Virus record (IMG/VR): IMGVR_UViG_3300042326_002137 | Span: 1-34,014 of that record | Direction: 5' to 3' (one strand) | DNA length: 34,014 nt | Source: a virus | In this document: positions 2,961-20,760 of the stretch, one piece after another | How positions within the stretch are numbered: position 1 is the first letter of the stretch | Layout of the letters: each line of letters begins with the position of its first letter | Position numbers and translations under genes: made by a program | The notes under the pieces: generated by a model | What the model saw: only the letters and a program-made list of their open reading frames with translations | What the model was told of the DNA's origin: nothing | Databases searched by the model: none

Positions 2961-3324
2961 ACACTTTACCGTCTATCGTCTTCTGTCTACCTTTAAGGTG
3001 ATGCGATAAGTTTTGTCTGGACATGTTTGGATATTTTCTTATCGCATCACCACCGCTCGCGAATAGTTCGCCTGTGGTAATACAATAAAGAGGCTTTGAT
3101 CTAGGATGCTGTGCGCCGATCATGGTTGAAGGTTTGCCCTTCTTGGCGCGAGATATCGCTTCGCAATGCTTTTTGGAGTAAGGACCGGACTTATACGTTT
3201 TTCCCTTGTTCCAAGGAATCGCATTCCAGTTAGTCGCAATTTTTTGTAAAGGTAAGTTATATACTTCGCTTAATTCCATTGGCTCTAGGCCAAGAGCGAT
3301 ACCGATCGGATCATAAATATCCAT
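2890..3324 (-). CDS. NUMOD3/NUMOD1-type DNA-binding protein (homing-endonuclease relative without nuclease domain)
   Basis: The minus-strand frame from ATG 3324 (GGAG ribosome site upstream) encodes 144 residues. Residues about 38-68 hold a NUMOD3-like motif (PWNKGKTYKSGPYSKKH, then a Lys/Arg-rich KKGK turn). Residues about 79-125 resemble a NUMOD1-like helix-turn-helix (TGELFASGGDAIRKYP ... LSHHLKGRQKT). These modules normally bind DNA next to a GIY-YIG or HNH nuclease domain, but no nuclease motif is visible here. It could be a trimmed homing endonuclease or a repurposed DNA binder. It is inserted between the ATPase gene and the promoter at 3442, and its last ~20 residues are antisense to the ATPase gene. 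Confidence 0.7.
   Translation of the reverse strand: MDIYDPIGIALGLEPMELSEVYNLPLQKIATNWNAIPWNKGKTYKSGPYSKKHCEAISRAKKGKPSTMIGAQHPRSKPLYCITTGELFASGGDAIRKYPNMSRQNLSHHLKGRQKTIDGKVFTYNTSLAQSASNLQTASEGDPT
2997..3051. repeat. 14-bp perfect inverted repeat with 27-nt loop
   Basis: GGTGATGCGATAAG (2997-3010) is exactly complementary to CTTATCGCATCACC (3038-3051). It lies inside the coding frame of the NUMOD3-type gene, just downstream of the ATPase stop codon. On the plus strand it could form a 3' stem-loop for the ATPase mRNA, but no U-tract follows. Confidence 0.7.
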
Positions 3325-16041: not shown

Positions 16042-16331
16042 AGAAATTTTTAATCACTGCAGTTGCTCTTGCTACATTGGTAGTTTCCACCACACCCTCA
16101 ATGGCAGACAACTCTGAAGAAGTAGCCATCGGCATTCTTGGTGGAGTTGTAGGCGGACTTATCCTTGGTGAGGTTTTAGAAAAACCTCGTCACTCTCACC
16201 CTGTTCGTGTATACGAATATGAAGAACCTTACATGGTTCGCGAGTGTGTAACTAAATATAGACGTTATTACGATTCAATGGGTAATCTTGTGCGACGTCC
16301 TGTGAAAAGATGTTATTGGGTTTATGAATAA
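16038..16331 (+). CDS. Secreted glycine-zipper protein, 97 aa
   Basis: Residues 1-23 are a signal peptide (MKKFLITAVALATLVVSTTP ... with a likely cut after SMA). They are followed by a glycine-zipper-like segment, VAIGILGGVVGGLILGEVL (29-47), that could insert into or associate with a membrane. The rest is basic and tyrosine-rich with two cysteines (RECVTKYRRYY ... KRCYWVYE). The layout resembles small bacterial periplasmic or outer-membrane proteins and may be host-derived. The ATG overlaps the previous stop (ATGA). A role in lysis or superinfection exclusion is possible but not shown. Confidence 0.75.
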   Translation: MKKFLITAVALATLVVSTTPSMADNSEEVAIGILGGVVGGLILGEVLEKPRHSHPVRVYEYEEPYMVRECVTKYRRYYDSMGNLVRRPVKRCYWVYE

Positions 16332-16349
16332 ATAAAAAAAGGATTAGTT

Positions 16350-16997
16350 ATGGACAGAGGTGTTTTTAGATCGATCGTTACTCCATATAGTATGACAACA
16401 GCGCCAAGAATTAATGCATTGTTCCAAAGTATGGAATATATCAGAAAAAATAATTTCAGCGGCGACTATGTTGAGTGTGGTGTGTGGCGAGGTGGTAATA
16501 TATTGGGAATGATGAGGTATCTTGAATACCATAACAACACTGAACCTAATATTTGGTTGTATGATACATTTTCCGGAATGACTCCTCCTGAAAGCGTTGA
16601 CGTTGATTTTATGAATAACAAGGCTTCTGATATTCTAGAAAATGTTCTTTGTATGAATTCATTAGATGAAGTTAAACAGGCATTGACGAACAGCAATTAT
16701 CCAACTGATAAGATTAAGTATGTCATTGGTGACATTTGCGAAACTCTCTTAGTTAAGGAGAACGTTCCTGAAAAGATCGCATTGCTGAGGTTAGATACAG
16801 ATTGGTATAATTCTACAAAGGTTGAATTGGAAGTTTTGTGGGATAAACTTGAAGTTGGTGCACCTTGCATCATTGACGATTATGGACATTGGCAAGGTTG
16901 TAGAATGGCAGTTGATGAATTTTTCGCGAAGCTGCCACAGGCTCATGAATTTGAACAAATAGATTACACTTGTGTTAGAACACACAAGATTTGTTAA
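16350..16997 (+). CDS. TylF/MycF-like O-methyltransferase family protein, 215 aa
   Basis: The SAM-binding motif is VECGVWRGGN (41-50), followed by the acidic loop YDTFSGM (71-77), RLDTDWYNST (147-156) and IIDDYGHW (174-181). Asp150 and Asp176/177 fit the metal site of the TylF macrocin O-methyltransferase family. This class methylates hydroxyls on sugars. In a phage it could modify host surface sugars or a virion glycan; the target is unknown. AAAGGATTAGTT precedes the ATG. It sits just upstream of the tmRNA region and is AT-rich. Confidence 0.85.
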   Translation: MDRGVFRSIVTPYSMTTAPRINALFQSMEYIRKNNFSGDYVECGVWRGGNILGMMRYLEYHNNTEPNIWLYDTFSGMTPPESVDVDFMNNKASDILENVLCMNSLDEVKQALTNSNYPTDKIKYVIGDICETLLVKENVPEKIALLRLDTDWYNSTKVELEVLWDKLEVGAPCIIDDYGHWQGCRMAVDEFFAKLPQAHEFEQIDYTCVRTHKIC

Positions 16998-17000
16998 GGA

Positions 17001-17206
17001 ATTATCGTTGAAGGAAAACGAAAGACACTGAGGACGCCGAGCGTTACTAATGAAGTTGATCAAATTAGAAGAGTTTATTATAGCTGATACCGGAGTAAAG
17101 GTCACGATTCTTGTTGACATTGCTACAATGGGTAAAGCATACGCTGAGGCTCATCTGAAATGGCCAAAGATATTATCGTTGAAGGAATACGAAAAACACT
17201 GAGGAC
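17001..17206 (+). repeat. 35-bp direct repeat, 33/35 identical, 171 bp apart
   Basis: Copy 1 is 17001-17035 and copy 2 is 17172-17206; they differ at two positions. Both contain CGTTGAAGGAA and end CACTGAGGAC. Copy 2 encodes the end of the ORF at 17050-17202 and runs into the tmRNA acceptor piece. Copy 1 lies just after the TylF-like gene's stop. The 171-bp period is a multiple of three, and both copies can be read as SLKE(N/Y)E(R/K)H followed by TGA, suggesting a duplicated or recombined gene end. Confidence 0.85.
17050..17202 (+). CDS. Possible 50-aa protein ending inside the tmRNA acceptor piece
   Basis: ATG 17050 to TGA 17200-17202 encodes 50 residues (MKLIKLEEFIIADTGVKVTI ... LKWPKILSLKEYEKH) with a plausible alpha/beta profile. 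The ribosome site is weak (GAG 8 nt upstream). Its last 10 codons lie in the second copy of a 35-bp direct repeat and overlap the start of the tmRNA acceptor piece. It may be a real small gene, or a gene remnant left by recombination at the RNA locus. Function unknown. Confidence 0.5.
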   Translation: MKLIKLEEFIIADTGVKVTILVDIATMGKAYAEAHLKWPKILSLKEYEKH

Positions 17207-17475
17207 TGGGGGGCAGTACCCCACGCCTCCACCAAAGACACACTACCTAATAATAGCGGCGTACCCGTGGGGTTATTAGGAGTCTTGCAAGCTGGTGTGT
17301 CTTTGATGGGGGCGAACTAGGATCGACTGAGTGTAGAATAGTTGACTGGAGATAATCGTAGGCGACTACGTACAAGCGCAAAACTCTAAATGCAAACGAT
17401 AACTTTGCACCTCGTTTGGCACTAGCTGCCTAACATGAGTCCGGTGGGTACTTGGAAACAGAAACCCACCACCAA
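17172..17475 (+). ncRNA. ssrA: Circularly permuted (two-piece) tmRNA
   Basis: The acceptor half comes first. A T-arm TGGGG/CCCCA with loop GGCAGTA ends at 17223, followed by CGCCTCC (17224-17230) and ACCA (17231-17234). The coding half begins GGGGGCG (17308-17314), which pairs with CGCCTCC and puts the G3-U70 alanine identity pair in the stem, then AACTAGGATCGACTG. CTGAGTGT in the coding half can pair with ACACTGAG before the T-arm (P2). The intervening segment 17235-17307 is closed by AAAGACACAC/GTGTGTCTTT. The tag ORF 17392-17433 (GCA ... TAA) encodes ANDNFAPRLALAA. A GGTGGGT/ACCCACC hairpin (17443-17470) closes the 3' end. This is the alphaproteobacterial gene order. The mature 5' and 3' ends are approximate. 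Confidence 0.9.
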
Positions 17476-17481
17476 TTTCGC

Positions 17482-17510
17482 TTGACATTAAATCGGTGTC
17501 AGGGTACAAT
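17482..17510 (+). promoter_or_regulatory. Spacer-element promoter for the tRNA region
   Basis: -35 TTGACA (17482-17487), a 17-bp spacer beginning TTAAATCGG, and -10 TACAAT (17505-17510). It starts right after the tmRNA 3' hairpin and lies 10 nt before the first tRNA. Confidence 0.8.
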
Positions 17511-17519
17511 GAATAATAA

Positions 17520-17602
17520 GGCCACGTAACCGAGGACGGCTTCTACCCGTTTACACGTAACTGGAGTTGCAAATGGGGGTTCGAATCCCTCCGTGGTCGC
17601 CA
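17520..17602 (+). tRNA. Atypical tRNA, probable Arg (anticodon TCT)
   Basis: The acceptor stem GGCCACG/CGTGGTC (17520-17526, 17592-17598), discriminator G and encoded CCA are clear, as is the T-arm GGGGG-TTCGAAT-CCCTC. The best anticodon arm is GACGG-CTTCTAC-CCGTT (17535-17551), giving T33, anticodon TCT (17542-17544) and A37. Only 8 nt (TAACCGAG) link it to the acceptor stem, so no normal D-arm is present. Instead a stem-loop GTAAC-TGGA-GTTGC (17557-17570) lies between the anticodon and T arms. The anticodon is therefore provisional. Confidence 0.6.
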
Positions 17603-18195: not shown

Positions 18196-18287
18196 GGGCG
18201 TGGGTGTTGGTACACAAGAGCGGCTTATACTCGCTTTAGCACTAGATCGGTGTTCTCGACAGGGTTCGAATCCTTGCACGCCTACCA
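18196..18287 (+). tRNA. Atypical tRNA with long variable arm, apparent anticodon TAT
   Basis: The acceptor stem GGGCGTG/CACGCCT (18196-18202, 18277-18283), A73 and encoded CCA are intact, with a T-arm CAGGG-TTCGAAT-CCTTG. A compact D-arm GTGT-TGGT-ACAC follows. The anticodon arm AGCGG-CTTATAC-TCGCT gives T33, anticodon TAT (18226-18228) and A37, which would read AUA (Ile). A class-II-size variable arm (AGCAC ... GTGTT) is unusual for tRNA-Ile, and position 8 is G, not T. The amino-acid identity is therefore uncertain. Confidence 0.65.
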
Positions 18288-18745: not shown

Positions 18746-19186
18746 ATGCAAATACGTACAAAGGGAAAACCTGATAATGTGTCTAGATCGTTATGTAAAG
18801 AGTCTCTTCAGTTTTATGCGAATGAATTATTAGGTAAGAGACTTTCAAAAAATATCAGTTTACAATTGGTGTTTGAAAAATTACCAAGTCCTTATTTCGC
18901 AATTTGTGACTGGAATGACGATGGTCCAGTTCATCGAAACTTCATTGTAATAATAAGCAAAACTCTAAAGAAAAGATCGATGTTGGTTACTCTCGCGCAT
19001 GAGATGGTTCACATCAAGCAATATGCTAGAAAAGAGTTGCAAGACAATAAACATCGTGACAGTGTAAAGTGGCTTGGGAAAGTGTTTTGTTTAAACAAGA
19101 CCAAGTACCACAAAAGACCTTGGGAAATAGAAGCTTATGCTAAAGATAAGCCATTATACGAAAAGTTCAAACAAAGAAATAAATGA
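18746..19186 (+). CDS. SprT-like zinc metallopeptidase domain protein, 146 aa
   Basis: HEMVH at residues 85-89 within TLAHEMVHIKQY is the zinc-protease motif, and KHRDS (His103) offers the third ligand, as in SprT/Spartan. The ending WEIEAYAK is also typical of phage SprT-like proteins. In eukaryotes the relatives degrade DNA-crosslinked proteins. In phages the role is unknown, but the gene is often beside replication genes, as here between gp33 and gp59. GAGAGGCTCCC precedes the ATG. It overlaps gp59 by 4 nt. Confidence 0.85.
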   Translation: MQIRTKGKPDNVSRSLCKESLQFYANELLGKRLSKNISLQLVFEKLPSPYFAICDWNDDGPVHRNFIVIISKTLKKRSMLVTLAHEMVHIKQYARKELQDNKHRDSVKWLGKVFCLNKTKYHKRPWEIEAYAKDKPLYEKFKQRNK

Positions 19187-19761
19187 TGTCAGCATTTGAA
19201 TGTTACAAAGAGTATCTTGCGTTGAAAAATCATTTCTCGAAACAAGAATATGATTACTTCAAATATAACGGAAAGCTAAAGGTAAATCCTGATACTTTCA
19301 ATTCTCGAAAAGATAAATTGTTTTTTCAAAAGCTTGCTAAACATCCGGATGTTCATAATTTTCTTGTAGCTAATCTTAGCAAAAACGAGAAAGCTTGGAT
19401 TAAGGATTTGGCGTATAGCGAAGATGCTGAGAAAACATACAAGGATTGGCTGAAGCGCAATCAGTCTTTAACATATGTGCTGAAAAACGAACTTCAGTAT
19501 CTTGTCCCCGATTTTAATTTGAATTTTACGAGTCATGGTTCAGATCATCCTTGTCTTTTAAAATTATATTTGGGCGGATATGTAAGTTTAGAAACTCTTT
19601 GCATCCTTCTACACCTAACAAAGGCAAAGAAGCATTGGGATTCTAAGATGGAGTATGATCTAGTCTATCAAGAAGTTAAGTTGAAGATTGAGAAATATAC
19701 GCCATTTATTAAGTACGATAAAGAAAAAGTGAAAAATATTGTCATTGACTTTTTTAGCTGA
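19183..19761 (+). CDS. gp59: gp59-like loader of replicative helicase, 192 aa
   Basis: The start MSAFECYKEYLALKNHFSKQ, then YDYFKYNGKLKV, FFQKLAKH, and the C-terminal HPCLLKLYLGGYVSLETLCI with YTPFIKYD are strong family marks of T4 gp59. In T4 it binds fork DNA and gp32 and loads the gp41 helicase. The length is close to T4's 217 aa. The start is ATG 19183 (overlapping the previous stop) or 19186. gp32 follows 80 nt later under its own promoter, whose elements lie in the gp59 3' end. Confidence 0.9.
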   Translation: MMSAFECYKEYLALKNHFSKQEYDYFKYNGKLKVNPDTFNSRKDKLFFQKLAKHPDVHNFLVANLSKNEKAWIKDLAYSEDAEKTYKDWLKRNQSLTYVLKNELQYLVPDFNLNFTSHGSDHPCLLKLYLGGYVSLETLCILLHLTKAKKHWDSKMEYDLVYQEVKLKIEKYTPFIKYDKEKVKNIVIDFFS

Positions 19762-19773
19762 TGGTAGTATACT
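19745..19773 (+). promoter_or_regulatory. gp32 promoter
   Basis: -35 TTGACT (19745-19750), a 17-bp T-rich spacer, and -10 TATACT (19768-19773). It lacks the TTAAWTC element of the early promoters. The leader that follows has a GGCT-GATAAA-AGCC hairpin (19786-19799), then an A-rich stretch up to GGAGATACAT. Confidence 0.75.
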
Positions 19774-19842
19774 AAATAATGTTGCGGCTGATAAAAGCCA
19801 ATACGAAACATACATTGCAATACAAAACATACGGAGATACAT

Positions 19843-20760
19843 ATGGTAGACTTTTCTAAGCTCAAGGCCAATTCTGGCAAGAAGTCCCTCGAAGACCTTA
19901 ATAAGAAGCTGTCAAGCTTGGCTGGTAATGAGGGCAAGGGTGCTGACGATCGTTTCTGGTCAGCCACAGTAGACAAGGCTGGTAACGGCTATGCTGTCAT
20001 CCGATTCCTCCCCGCTCCCCAAAACGAAGACGTTCCTTTCATTCGCATGTTCGACCATGGTTTCCAGGGTCCGGGCGGATGGTACATTGAAAACTCTTTG
20101 ACAACTCTTGGTAAACCCGATCCTGTTTCGGAGTATAATTCCAAGCTTTGGAATAGCGGCATTGAAGCCAACAAGGAAATCGCACGTAAGCAGAAGCGTC
20201 GCCTTCACTTCATTGCGAATATTTACATTGTCCAAGATTCGGGTAATCCCGACAATGAAGGTAAGGTTTTCCTCTTCAAGTTTGGCAAGAAGATTTTCGA
20301 CAAGCTCAATGAAGCTATGAATCCTCAGTTTGCCGACGAGGAAGCTGTTAATCCTTTCGACCTTTGGGCTGGAGCTAACTTCAAGCTGAAGATTCGTAAC
20401 GTCGAAGGTTATCGTAATTATGATAAGTCAGAGTTTGACAAGGCTGGTCCTTTGAAGAATGATGACTCTGAGCTTGAAGCAATTTGGAAGAAGGAACATT
20501 CTCTACAAACTTTCCTTGATCCTAGCAACTTCAAGAGCTATGATGAACTGAAGGCCAAGCTTATGAAGGCTCTGGCTGAAGATAACTCTCCCGCCTCTGC
20601 TCGCAAGAAGGCTGAAGATGAAGATCTTCCATGGGATGAAGATTCCGCACCTGCTCCTAAGCAGAAGGCAAAGGCTGCTCCTGAATTTAATAGTTCAGCA
20701 ATTGAAGAAGATGATGACGAGTCATTGGAATTCTTTAAGAATTTAGCTAACAAGAAGTAA
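19843..20760 (+). CDS. gp32: gp32 single-stranded DNA-binding protein, 305 aa
   Basis: The N-terminal KKSLEDLNKKLSSLAG corresponds to the cooperativity (LAST) region. The core RFLPAPQNEDVPFIRMFDHG, with FQGPGGWYIENSLTTLGKPD and NPFDLWAGANFKLKI, is the OB-fold. The tail (EDEDLPWDED ... EEDDDESLEFF) is the acidic protein-interaction end. The Cys ligands of T4's zinc site are replaced (GWYIENSLTTLGKPDPV has none), as in cyanophage relatives. It coats replication-fork ssDNA and partners with gp59. A GGAG site 7 nt upstream sets the start. A bidirectional terminator follows. Confidence 0.95.
   Translation: MVDFSKLKANSGKKSLEDLNKKLSSLAGNEGKGADDRFWSATVDKAGNGYAVIRFLPAPQNEDVPFIRMFDHGFQGPGGWYIENSLTTLGKPDPVSEYNSKLWNSGIEANKEIARKQKRRLHFIANIYIVQDSGNPDNEGKVFLFKFGKKIFDKLNEAMNPQFADEEAVNPFDLWAGANFKLKIRNVEGYRNYDKSEFDKAGPLKNDDSELEAIWKKEHSLQTFLDPSNFKSYDELKAKLMKALAEDNSPASARKKAEDEDLPWDEDSAPAPKQKAKAAPEFNSSAIEEDDDESLEFFKNLANKK

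Follow-up and report, generated by a model that had tools for sequence, protein, structure and literature searches.

A circularly permuted two-piece tmRNA gene in a T4-like phage fragment, and intervening sequences of related phage genes that often appear to encode proteins

Results

The tmRNA locus

The window analysed here is a whole 34-kb IMG/VR record (34,014 nt) and represents a fragment of a T4-like phage. A complete circularly permuted tmRNA gene of the alphaproteobacterial type was located at positions 17172–17473, in which the acceptor half precedes the coding half and the two are separated by an intervening sequence (IVS). The features of the gene and its surroundings are as follows.

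16350–16997, + strand: TylF-like methyltransferase gene (TylF/macrocin O-methyltransferase-like; Pfam TylF, 139 bits)
17001–17035, + strand: second tmRNA 5' end, broken, matching 17172–17206 at 33/35 positions
17050–17202, + strand: conserved 50-aa ORF (12 IMG/VR loci, full-length ones down to 74% identity)
17172–17234, + strand: acceptor half (RF04321/RF01849, ARAGORN, helix coordinates)
17172–17177 (ATTATC) and 17351–17356 (GATAAT), + strand: P2 helix, 6 bp (helix coordinates)
17203–17223, + strand: T-arm (helix coordinates)
17224–17230, + strand: acceptor 3' strand CGCCTCC (helix coordinates)
17231–17234, + strand: encoded ACCA (directly read)
17235–17307, + strand: IVS, 73 nt, without an ORF of note
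17308–17473, + strand: coding half (ARAGORN, Rfam, helix coordinates)
17308–17314, + strand: acceptor 5' strand GGGGGCG (helix coordinates)
within the coding half, + strand: D-loop-like GGATCGAC
17392–17433, + strand: tag ORF ANDNFAPRLALAA with its stop codon (ARAGORN, direct reading)
17443–17470, + strand: 3' hairpin GGTGGGT/ACCCACC of the coding half
17482–17510, + strand: candidate sigma-70-like promoter TTGACA-17-TACAAT (11/12 consensus matches)
17520–17599, + strand: tRNA-like gene (RF00005, a weak match of 31.6 bits, cut-off 29)
19183–19761, + strand: gp59-like helicase loader (PHROG 269 and 224 for the gp59/gp32 module)
19843–20760, + strand: gp32-like ssDNA-binding protein (same module)

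The sequence-only reading had proposed a permuted phage tmRNA of alphaproteobacterial type, to be checked with covariance models and ARAGORN. This was borne out when the searches were run: both Rfam models matched far above their cut-offs, tmRNA_permuted (RF04321) at 17172–17433 with 119.4 bits (cut-off 47, E 5e-23) and alpha_tmRNA (RF01849) at 17116–17473 with 100.9 bits (cut-off 50, E 1e-26), and ARAGORN called a permuted tmRNA at 17142–17524 with the tag ANDNFAPRLALAA. The tag has the ANDN start that had been claimed and an Ala-rich hydrophobic end with the usual ALAA. The predicted 7-bp acceptor stem joining both halves was confirmed at 17308–17314/17224–17230, with the G3-U70 pair at 17310/17228 and the CGCCTCC strand followed by ACCA, as was the P2-like pairing, which covaries in relatives. 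Replacement of host ssrA or an altered degradation tag was put forward in that reading as a possible role of the phage gene. The ends of the IVS, AAGACACACTA (17235–17245) and TGGTGTGTCTT (17293–17303), form an 11-bp helix that extends the acceptor stem, and the native duplex has a calculated energy of -15.0 kcal/mol.

The pairing of the window tmRNA is not due to chance, because the stems change on both sides in relatives while pairing is kept. The acceptor stems found in relatives include GGGGGCG/CGCCTCC, GGGCCAG/CTGGTCC, GGGGCAG/CTGCTCC, GGGGCGG/CCGCTCC and GGGCTCG/CGGGTCC, and P2 is GTTATC/GATAAC in L190 and ATCATC/GATGGT in L090. Since the tmRNA gene finder accepted only genes with G3-U70 and seven acceptor pairs, these two features are not independent evidence, and among the stems only the variety at positions 4–6 is informative; independent evidence comes from this variety and from the two Rfam models. 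In a tree of mature sequences, which is to be treated with care since it was built on about 225 nt with a midpoint root, the clade of the window contained 123 viral and 0 bacterial members with a support of 0.88, and recent capture from a host is therefore unlikely. The same tag as in the window was found in two other phage contigs (L107, L129). DNA encoding the exact tag was absent from a collection of 84,980 bacterial/archaeal species scanned with a degenerate tag pattern, which fixes GCAAACGA and therefore misses genes with unusual codons. The start and end pattern of the tag is common to most of the 93 tmRNA calls in phage loci.

Genomic neighbourhood

The tmRNA gene lies upstream of a T4-like gp59/gp32 module (19183–20760), and the window also encodes proteins of the baseplate hub, tail tube and baseplate wedge and a DNA end protector. 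Permuted tmRNAs were called by ARAGORN on at least 21 of 80 contigs with gp32 relatives, and more were found with Rfam. The isolate phage Melnitz has the gene order ssrA, late-transcription coactivator, helicase loader, thymidylate synthase and ssDNA-binding protein, and L389, a contig of the family A described below, has the order PhoH, exonuclease, tmRNA, helicase loader and thymidylate synthase. A glutamine riboswitch has been reported at the position downstream of the tmRNA in Melnitz; in L189 a manA RNA motif (RF01745, 66 bits) lies at 662–870, directly 3' of the phage tmRNA.

The conserved 50-aa ORF shares its last ~10 codons (17172–17202) with the 5' portion of the acceptor half and stops right at the edge of the T-arm. 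Comparison of the window with L212 over residues 1–38 gave 13.5 changes at 25.2 synonymous sites and 15.5 at 88.8 nonsynonymous sites, and the overlapping end is unchanged; by these counts the first 38 codons evolve as protein. The ORF ends differently in L214 and L215, and the overlap with the tmRNA is therefore not universal. It had no match in isolate phages and matched no Pfam family.

Upstream of this ORF lies the broken tmRNA 5' end at 17001–17035, without T-arm or acceptor. L209 lacks the segment corresponding to window positions 16323–17038 and so represents an empty site for the TylF-like gene together with the broken 5' end. The 35-bp repeat was considered as an integrase attachment site and rejected: it lacks the acceptor end and no integrase was seen among the window ORFs examined, so that a recombination scar of the insertion that brought the TylF-like gene fits better. 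In L215, positions 2961–3152 give an incomplete permuted tmRNA match that spans the T-arm as far as the beginning of the coding half and, at 40.9 bits, falls short of the cut-off. It lies directly upstream of the complete tmRNA of this contig, and together with the window copy it suggests that tmRNA fragments duplicate at this locus.

The candidate promoter is directly 3' of the tmRNA and precedes the tRNA-like gene, for which ARAGORN gave no call. This gene has an apparently short D-arm, a long variable arm and the anticodon loop CTTCTAC, with TCT as the anticodon by reading, and is conserved in L209. ARAGORN also reported an unusually long tRNA-Ile(TAT) of 92 nt at 18196–18287, which L209 shares.

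Intervening sequences in bacteria and phages

The same 20-base DNA pattern was scanned in viral and bacterial/archaeal collections and unique genes were counted. The IMG/VR records are contigs and in most cases incomplete, and both scans were restricted to genes with a GGGGG[C/T]G acceptor strand; the figures below, which hold among the matches listed, are therefore not censuses of prevalence. Parsing with a fixed linker misses the HNH alleles described below, and looser parsing was used for the survey. Among the matches listed, the bacterial IVSs (n=103) had a median length of 31 nt and a maximum of 116 nt, and the viral IVSs (n=102) had a median of 79 nt and a maximum of 499 nt, with 19 longer than 150 nt. 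An ORF starting with ATG or GTG covered at least 60% of the sequence in 23 of the 30 listed viral IVSs of at least 110 nt, compared with a mean of 4.0 and a maximum of 8 in 100 dinucleotide shuffles. A phage IVS thus often appears to encode protein. The IVS ends pair far better natively than with partners swapped, both in viruses (-12.2 vs -4.9 kcal/mol) and in bacteria (-12.5 vs -8.0 kcal/mol), indicating that the spacer lengthens the acceptor stem in bacteria and phages. One family of IVS ORFs, the third next to the HNH and membrane peptide ORFs described below, carries the motif KIPKYLSG and was found in L185, L115 and Melnitz.

HNH ORFs in sister alleles

The 50-aa ORF of L209 is 96% identical to that of the window, and the 514-nt IVS of the tmRNA gene on this contig contains a 151-aa HNH ORF. 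In L210–L212 and L216 the IVS is about 327 nt and contains a 104-aa HNH ORF unrelated to the 151-aa one; both ORFs terminate with TGA immediately 5' of G1. They matched homing/HNH endonuclease families, PHROG 655 for L209 (E 1.7e-11) and PHROG 2255 for L212 (E 2e-25), and Pfam HNH was just under its cut-off for both. The 151-aa protein has many distant relatives in T4-like phages that are annotated as homing or mobile endonucleases. L358 has an HNH ORF 67% identical to it within the IVS of a clearly different tmRNA, that is, in a second tmRNA lineage, and comparison of the two genes (pS 0.64, pN 0.225) shows the protein to be conserved over the DNA.

Alleles with and without HNH ORFs differ only in the T-arm and acceptor strand and at the start of the coding half. 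L212 and the window are identical at 31/31 positions of the 5' domain and at 40/40 positions from GGATCGAC onward, and at 24/32 positions of the T-arm plus acceptor strand. Ordinary recombination could be the source of this pattern. The long IVSs were also considered as group I introns; this was rejected, as no intron family was among the Rfam matches to the long-IVS tmRNA genes at E 0.5 or 0.1.

A membrane peptide tied to the tmRNA

A second scan used CCA followed by the ribosome-binding-like NAAGGAGA, and the resulting set is thus selected for that sequence; its parsing also allows other T-arm starts. It gave at least 60 unique permuted tmRNAs, 56 with an IVS longer than 150 nt among the matches listed. 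Most of these IVSs encode a peptide of 38–44 aa, such as MKNPLVREVSKWMFKAYIVWSICADITLLAGIIYLVFF, here called family A, whose hydropathy is as expected for a peptide that crosses the membrane once. Ahead of it lies a short first ORF (e.g. MEVEFLGDQDEEPLSTRGK) that overlaps it and is open in 28 of 28 distinct sequences. Past the overlap the dN/dS of the peptide over these 28 was 0.13, with frame-shifted controls at 1.03 and 3.8.

An independent search with the peptide alignment alone gave 192 family-A relatives. Strict parsing placed 69 of the best 80 within a tmRNA IVS, and reading of the sequence added L517 and L518 (about 71/80). The module lies directly 5' of the permuted tmRNA, outside the IVS, in L515, L524–L526 and L551, which indicates that it stays tied to the tmRNA and can change side; a further four of the best 80 are truncated or rearranged loci. 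No family-A peptide was found in isolate phages by tblastn, where low-complexity masking by BLAST may hide matches.

Permuted tmRNAs in isolate phages

Permuted tmRNAs were also observed in six isolate phages (L003, L004, L005, L478, L479, L480) whose records have no annotated RNA feature. Those recorded were from Rhodobacter phages RcSimone-Hastad and RcRudolph (ANDNVRMDAQALAA) and RcXuper (ANENFAPMEMRLAA), Ruegeria phage vB_RpoS-V10 (ANINNAPMEMAIAA), Mesorhizobium phage Cp1R7A-A1 (VAANDNHFEARALAA) and Sinorhizobium phage Phosso (IVS of 410 nt). ARAGORN gave no call for the long-IVS tmRNA genes of L209–L212 and L005, which would account for annotations that have been missed.

Discussion

The window gene itself is of a known kind, since two-piece tmRNAs of phages have been published: a 2022 survey described 402 phages with tmRNA and 133 distinct structures, 53 of them two-piece, of which 50 were from marine or aquatic phages (PMC9004378). 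Like the Caulobacter-type tmRNA (RF01849), it has a GGCRGTA-type T-loop, an acceptor stem with G3-U70, CCA, an IVS and the tag start ANDN. Melnitz and other marine phages share the permuted alphaproteobacterial type (PMC9004378), and Melnitz is likewise a T4-like phage with ssrA upstream of the gp59–gp32 module. The two differ in their tags and in the IVS, which in Melnitz is 142 nt with an unannotated open frame resembling that of L185, whereas that of the window is 73 nt without an ORF; the overlapping 50-aa ORF is a feature of the window.

The evidence is best explained by an intact phage two-piece tmRNA gene whose discarded IVS holds protein genes in relatives, and we hold this with high confidence. 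The structure and pairing of the gene, the lengths of the IVSs, the conservation of the ORFs and their place in the genome were obtained here, and from them we infer how such a gene would be expressed, processed, charged and used for tagging. A single precursor of acceptor half, IVS and coding half would be transcribed, the paired IVS ends would lengthen the acceptor stem, and host tRNA-processing enzymes would cut at CCA and G1, leaving two halves held together by the acceptor stem and P2. Once it carries alanine, the RNA would act with host SmpB to add ANDNFAPRLALAA to stalled nascent chains and so direct them to proteolysis of the ClpXP type.

Being discarded, the IVS would tolerate cargo, and for the protein gene that it holds in sister alleles and other phage lineages the most likely template of translation is the precursor or the released spacer. 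The two unrelated HNH homing-type endonucleases probably use the IVS as a silent landing site, with the changes in acceptor stem and T-arm marking the endonuclease-bearing alleles, and the small membrane peptide may be a lasting resident. We consider it likely that the phage spacer is a nest for genes, namely HNH homing endonucleases and a two-ORF module with the tmRNA-bound membrane peptide of 38–44 aa, that the pre-tmRNA doubles as an mRNA, and that the window locus is a currently empty allele. The claim of cargo rests on the predicted ORFs of relatives; the IVS of the window has none.

One could suspect that the window copy was captured from a host tmRNA gene and is now decaying or without function, given that the broken 5' end 171 bp upstream shows the locus to be rearranged. 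Such a pseudogene is very unlikely, as both covariance models score well over cut-off, the helices (acceptor stem, P2 and the IVS helix) have remained intact and show covariation in relatives, the tag keeps its ALAA end, and the clade is entirely viral, which speaks against recent capture. It is also very unlikely that the RNA inhibits or titrates host SmpB and trans-translation instead of tagging. Phage DS6A has a tmRNA consisting of the tRNA-like domain only, and a molecule of similar kind is a strong inhibitor of tmRNA (PMC4131195); the DS6A RNA is tag-less, whereas the window gene has a complete tag ORF ending in ALAA, of a pattern common to most of the phage calls, for which a decoy would have no need.

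For the relatives, the question is whether chance alone would leave the IVS ORFs open in long AT-rich spacers. A few singletons (L095, L089, L154), for which no relatives were found or sought, would suit this explanation, which as a whole we regard as highly implausible. Filled IVSs among the matches listed far exceed the shuffled expectation (23/30 against 4, maximum 8), the peptide family has a dN/dS well below its frame controls, which are at or above 1, the two HNH ORFs match PHROG endonuclease families, and the HNH protein shared by L209 and L358 is conserved over its DNA. For the HNH and membrane peptide families the explanation by chance is already largely refuted, and an intact tmRNA gene with a cargo-bearing IVS in relatives is preferred.

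No report of protein genes in permuted-tmRNA IVSs was found in the open-access literature, and the available part of a 2025 tmRNA database paper (PMC11915505) mentions none. That part describes a tRNA-Ala inside the IVS of one permuted tmRNA from a nominally archaeal MAG, which like the phage relatives has a cargo gene within the IVS; the MAG cargo is a tRNA, whereas the phage cargo is protein genes and recurrent. It also describes tmRNA genes interrupted by a group I intron that encodes a LAGLIDADG homing endonuclease. In these, as in the phage relatives, a homing-type endonuclease gene is nested in removed RNA; unlike them, the phage gene lies in the permutation spacer, is of HNH type and has no group I intron. 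The bacterial IVSs of at most 116 nt also differ from those of viruses, which reach 499 nt and are often apparently protein-coding among the matches listed.

Taken alone, the window gene is one more phage two-piece tmRNA, and the wider IVS result would carry more weight. It would be unusual among bacteria and phages for a processed RNA precursor to encode a conserved protein in its throw-away part, and a coding IVS could partly explain why the permuted form persists in phages. For homing endonucleases, the IVS would be a silent site within an RNA gene that requires no intron, and in marine phages a conserved membrane peptide appears tied to the tmRNA. If this is true, one transcript would yield both a ribosome-rescue RNA and a protein.
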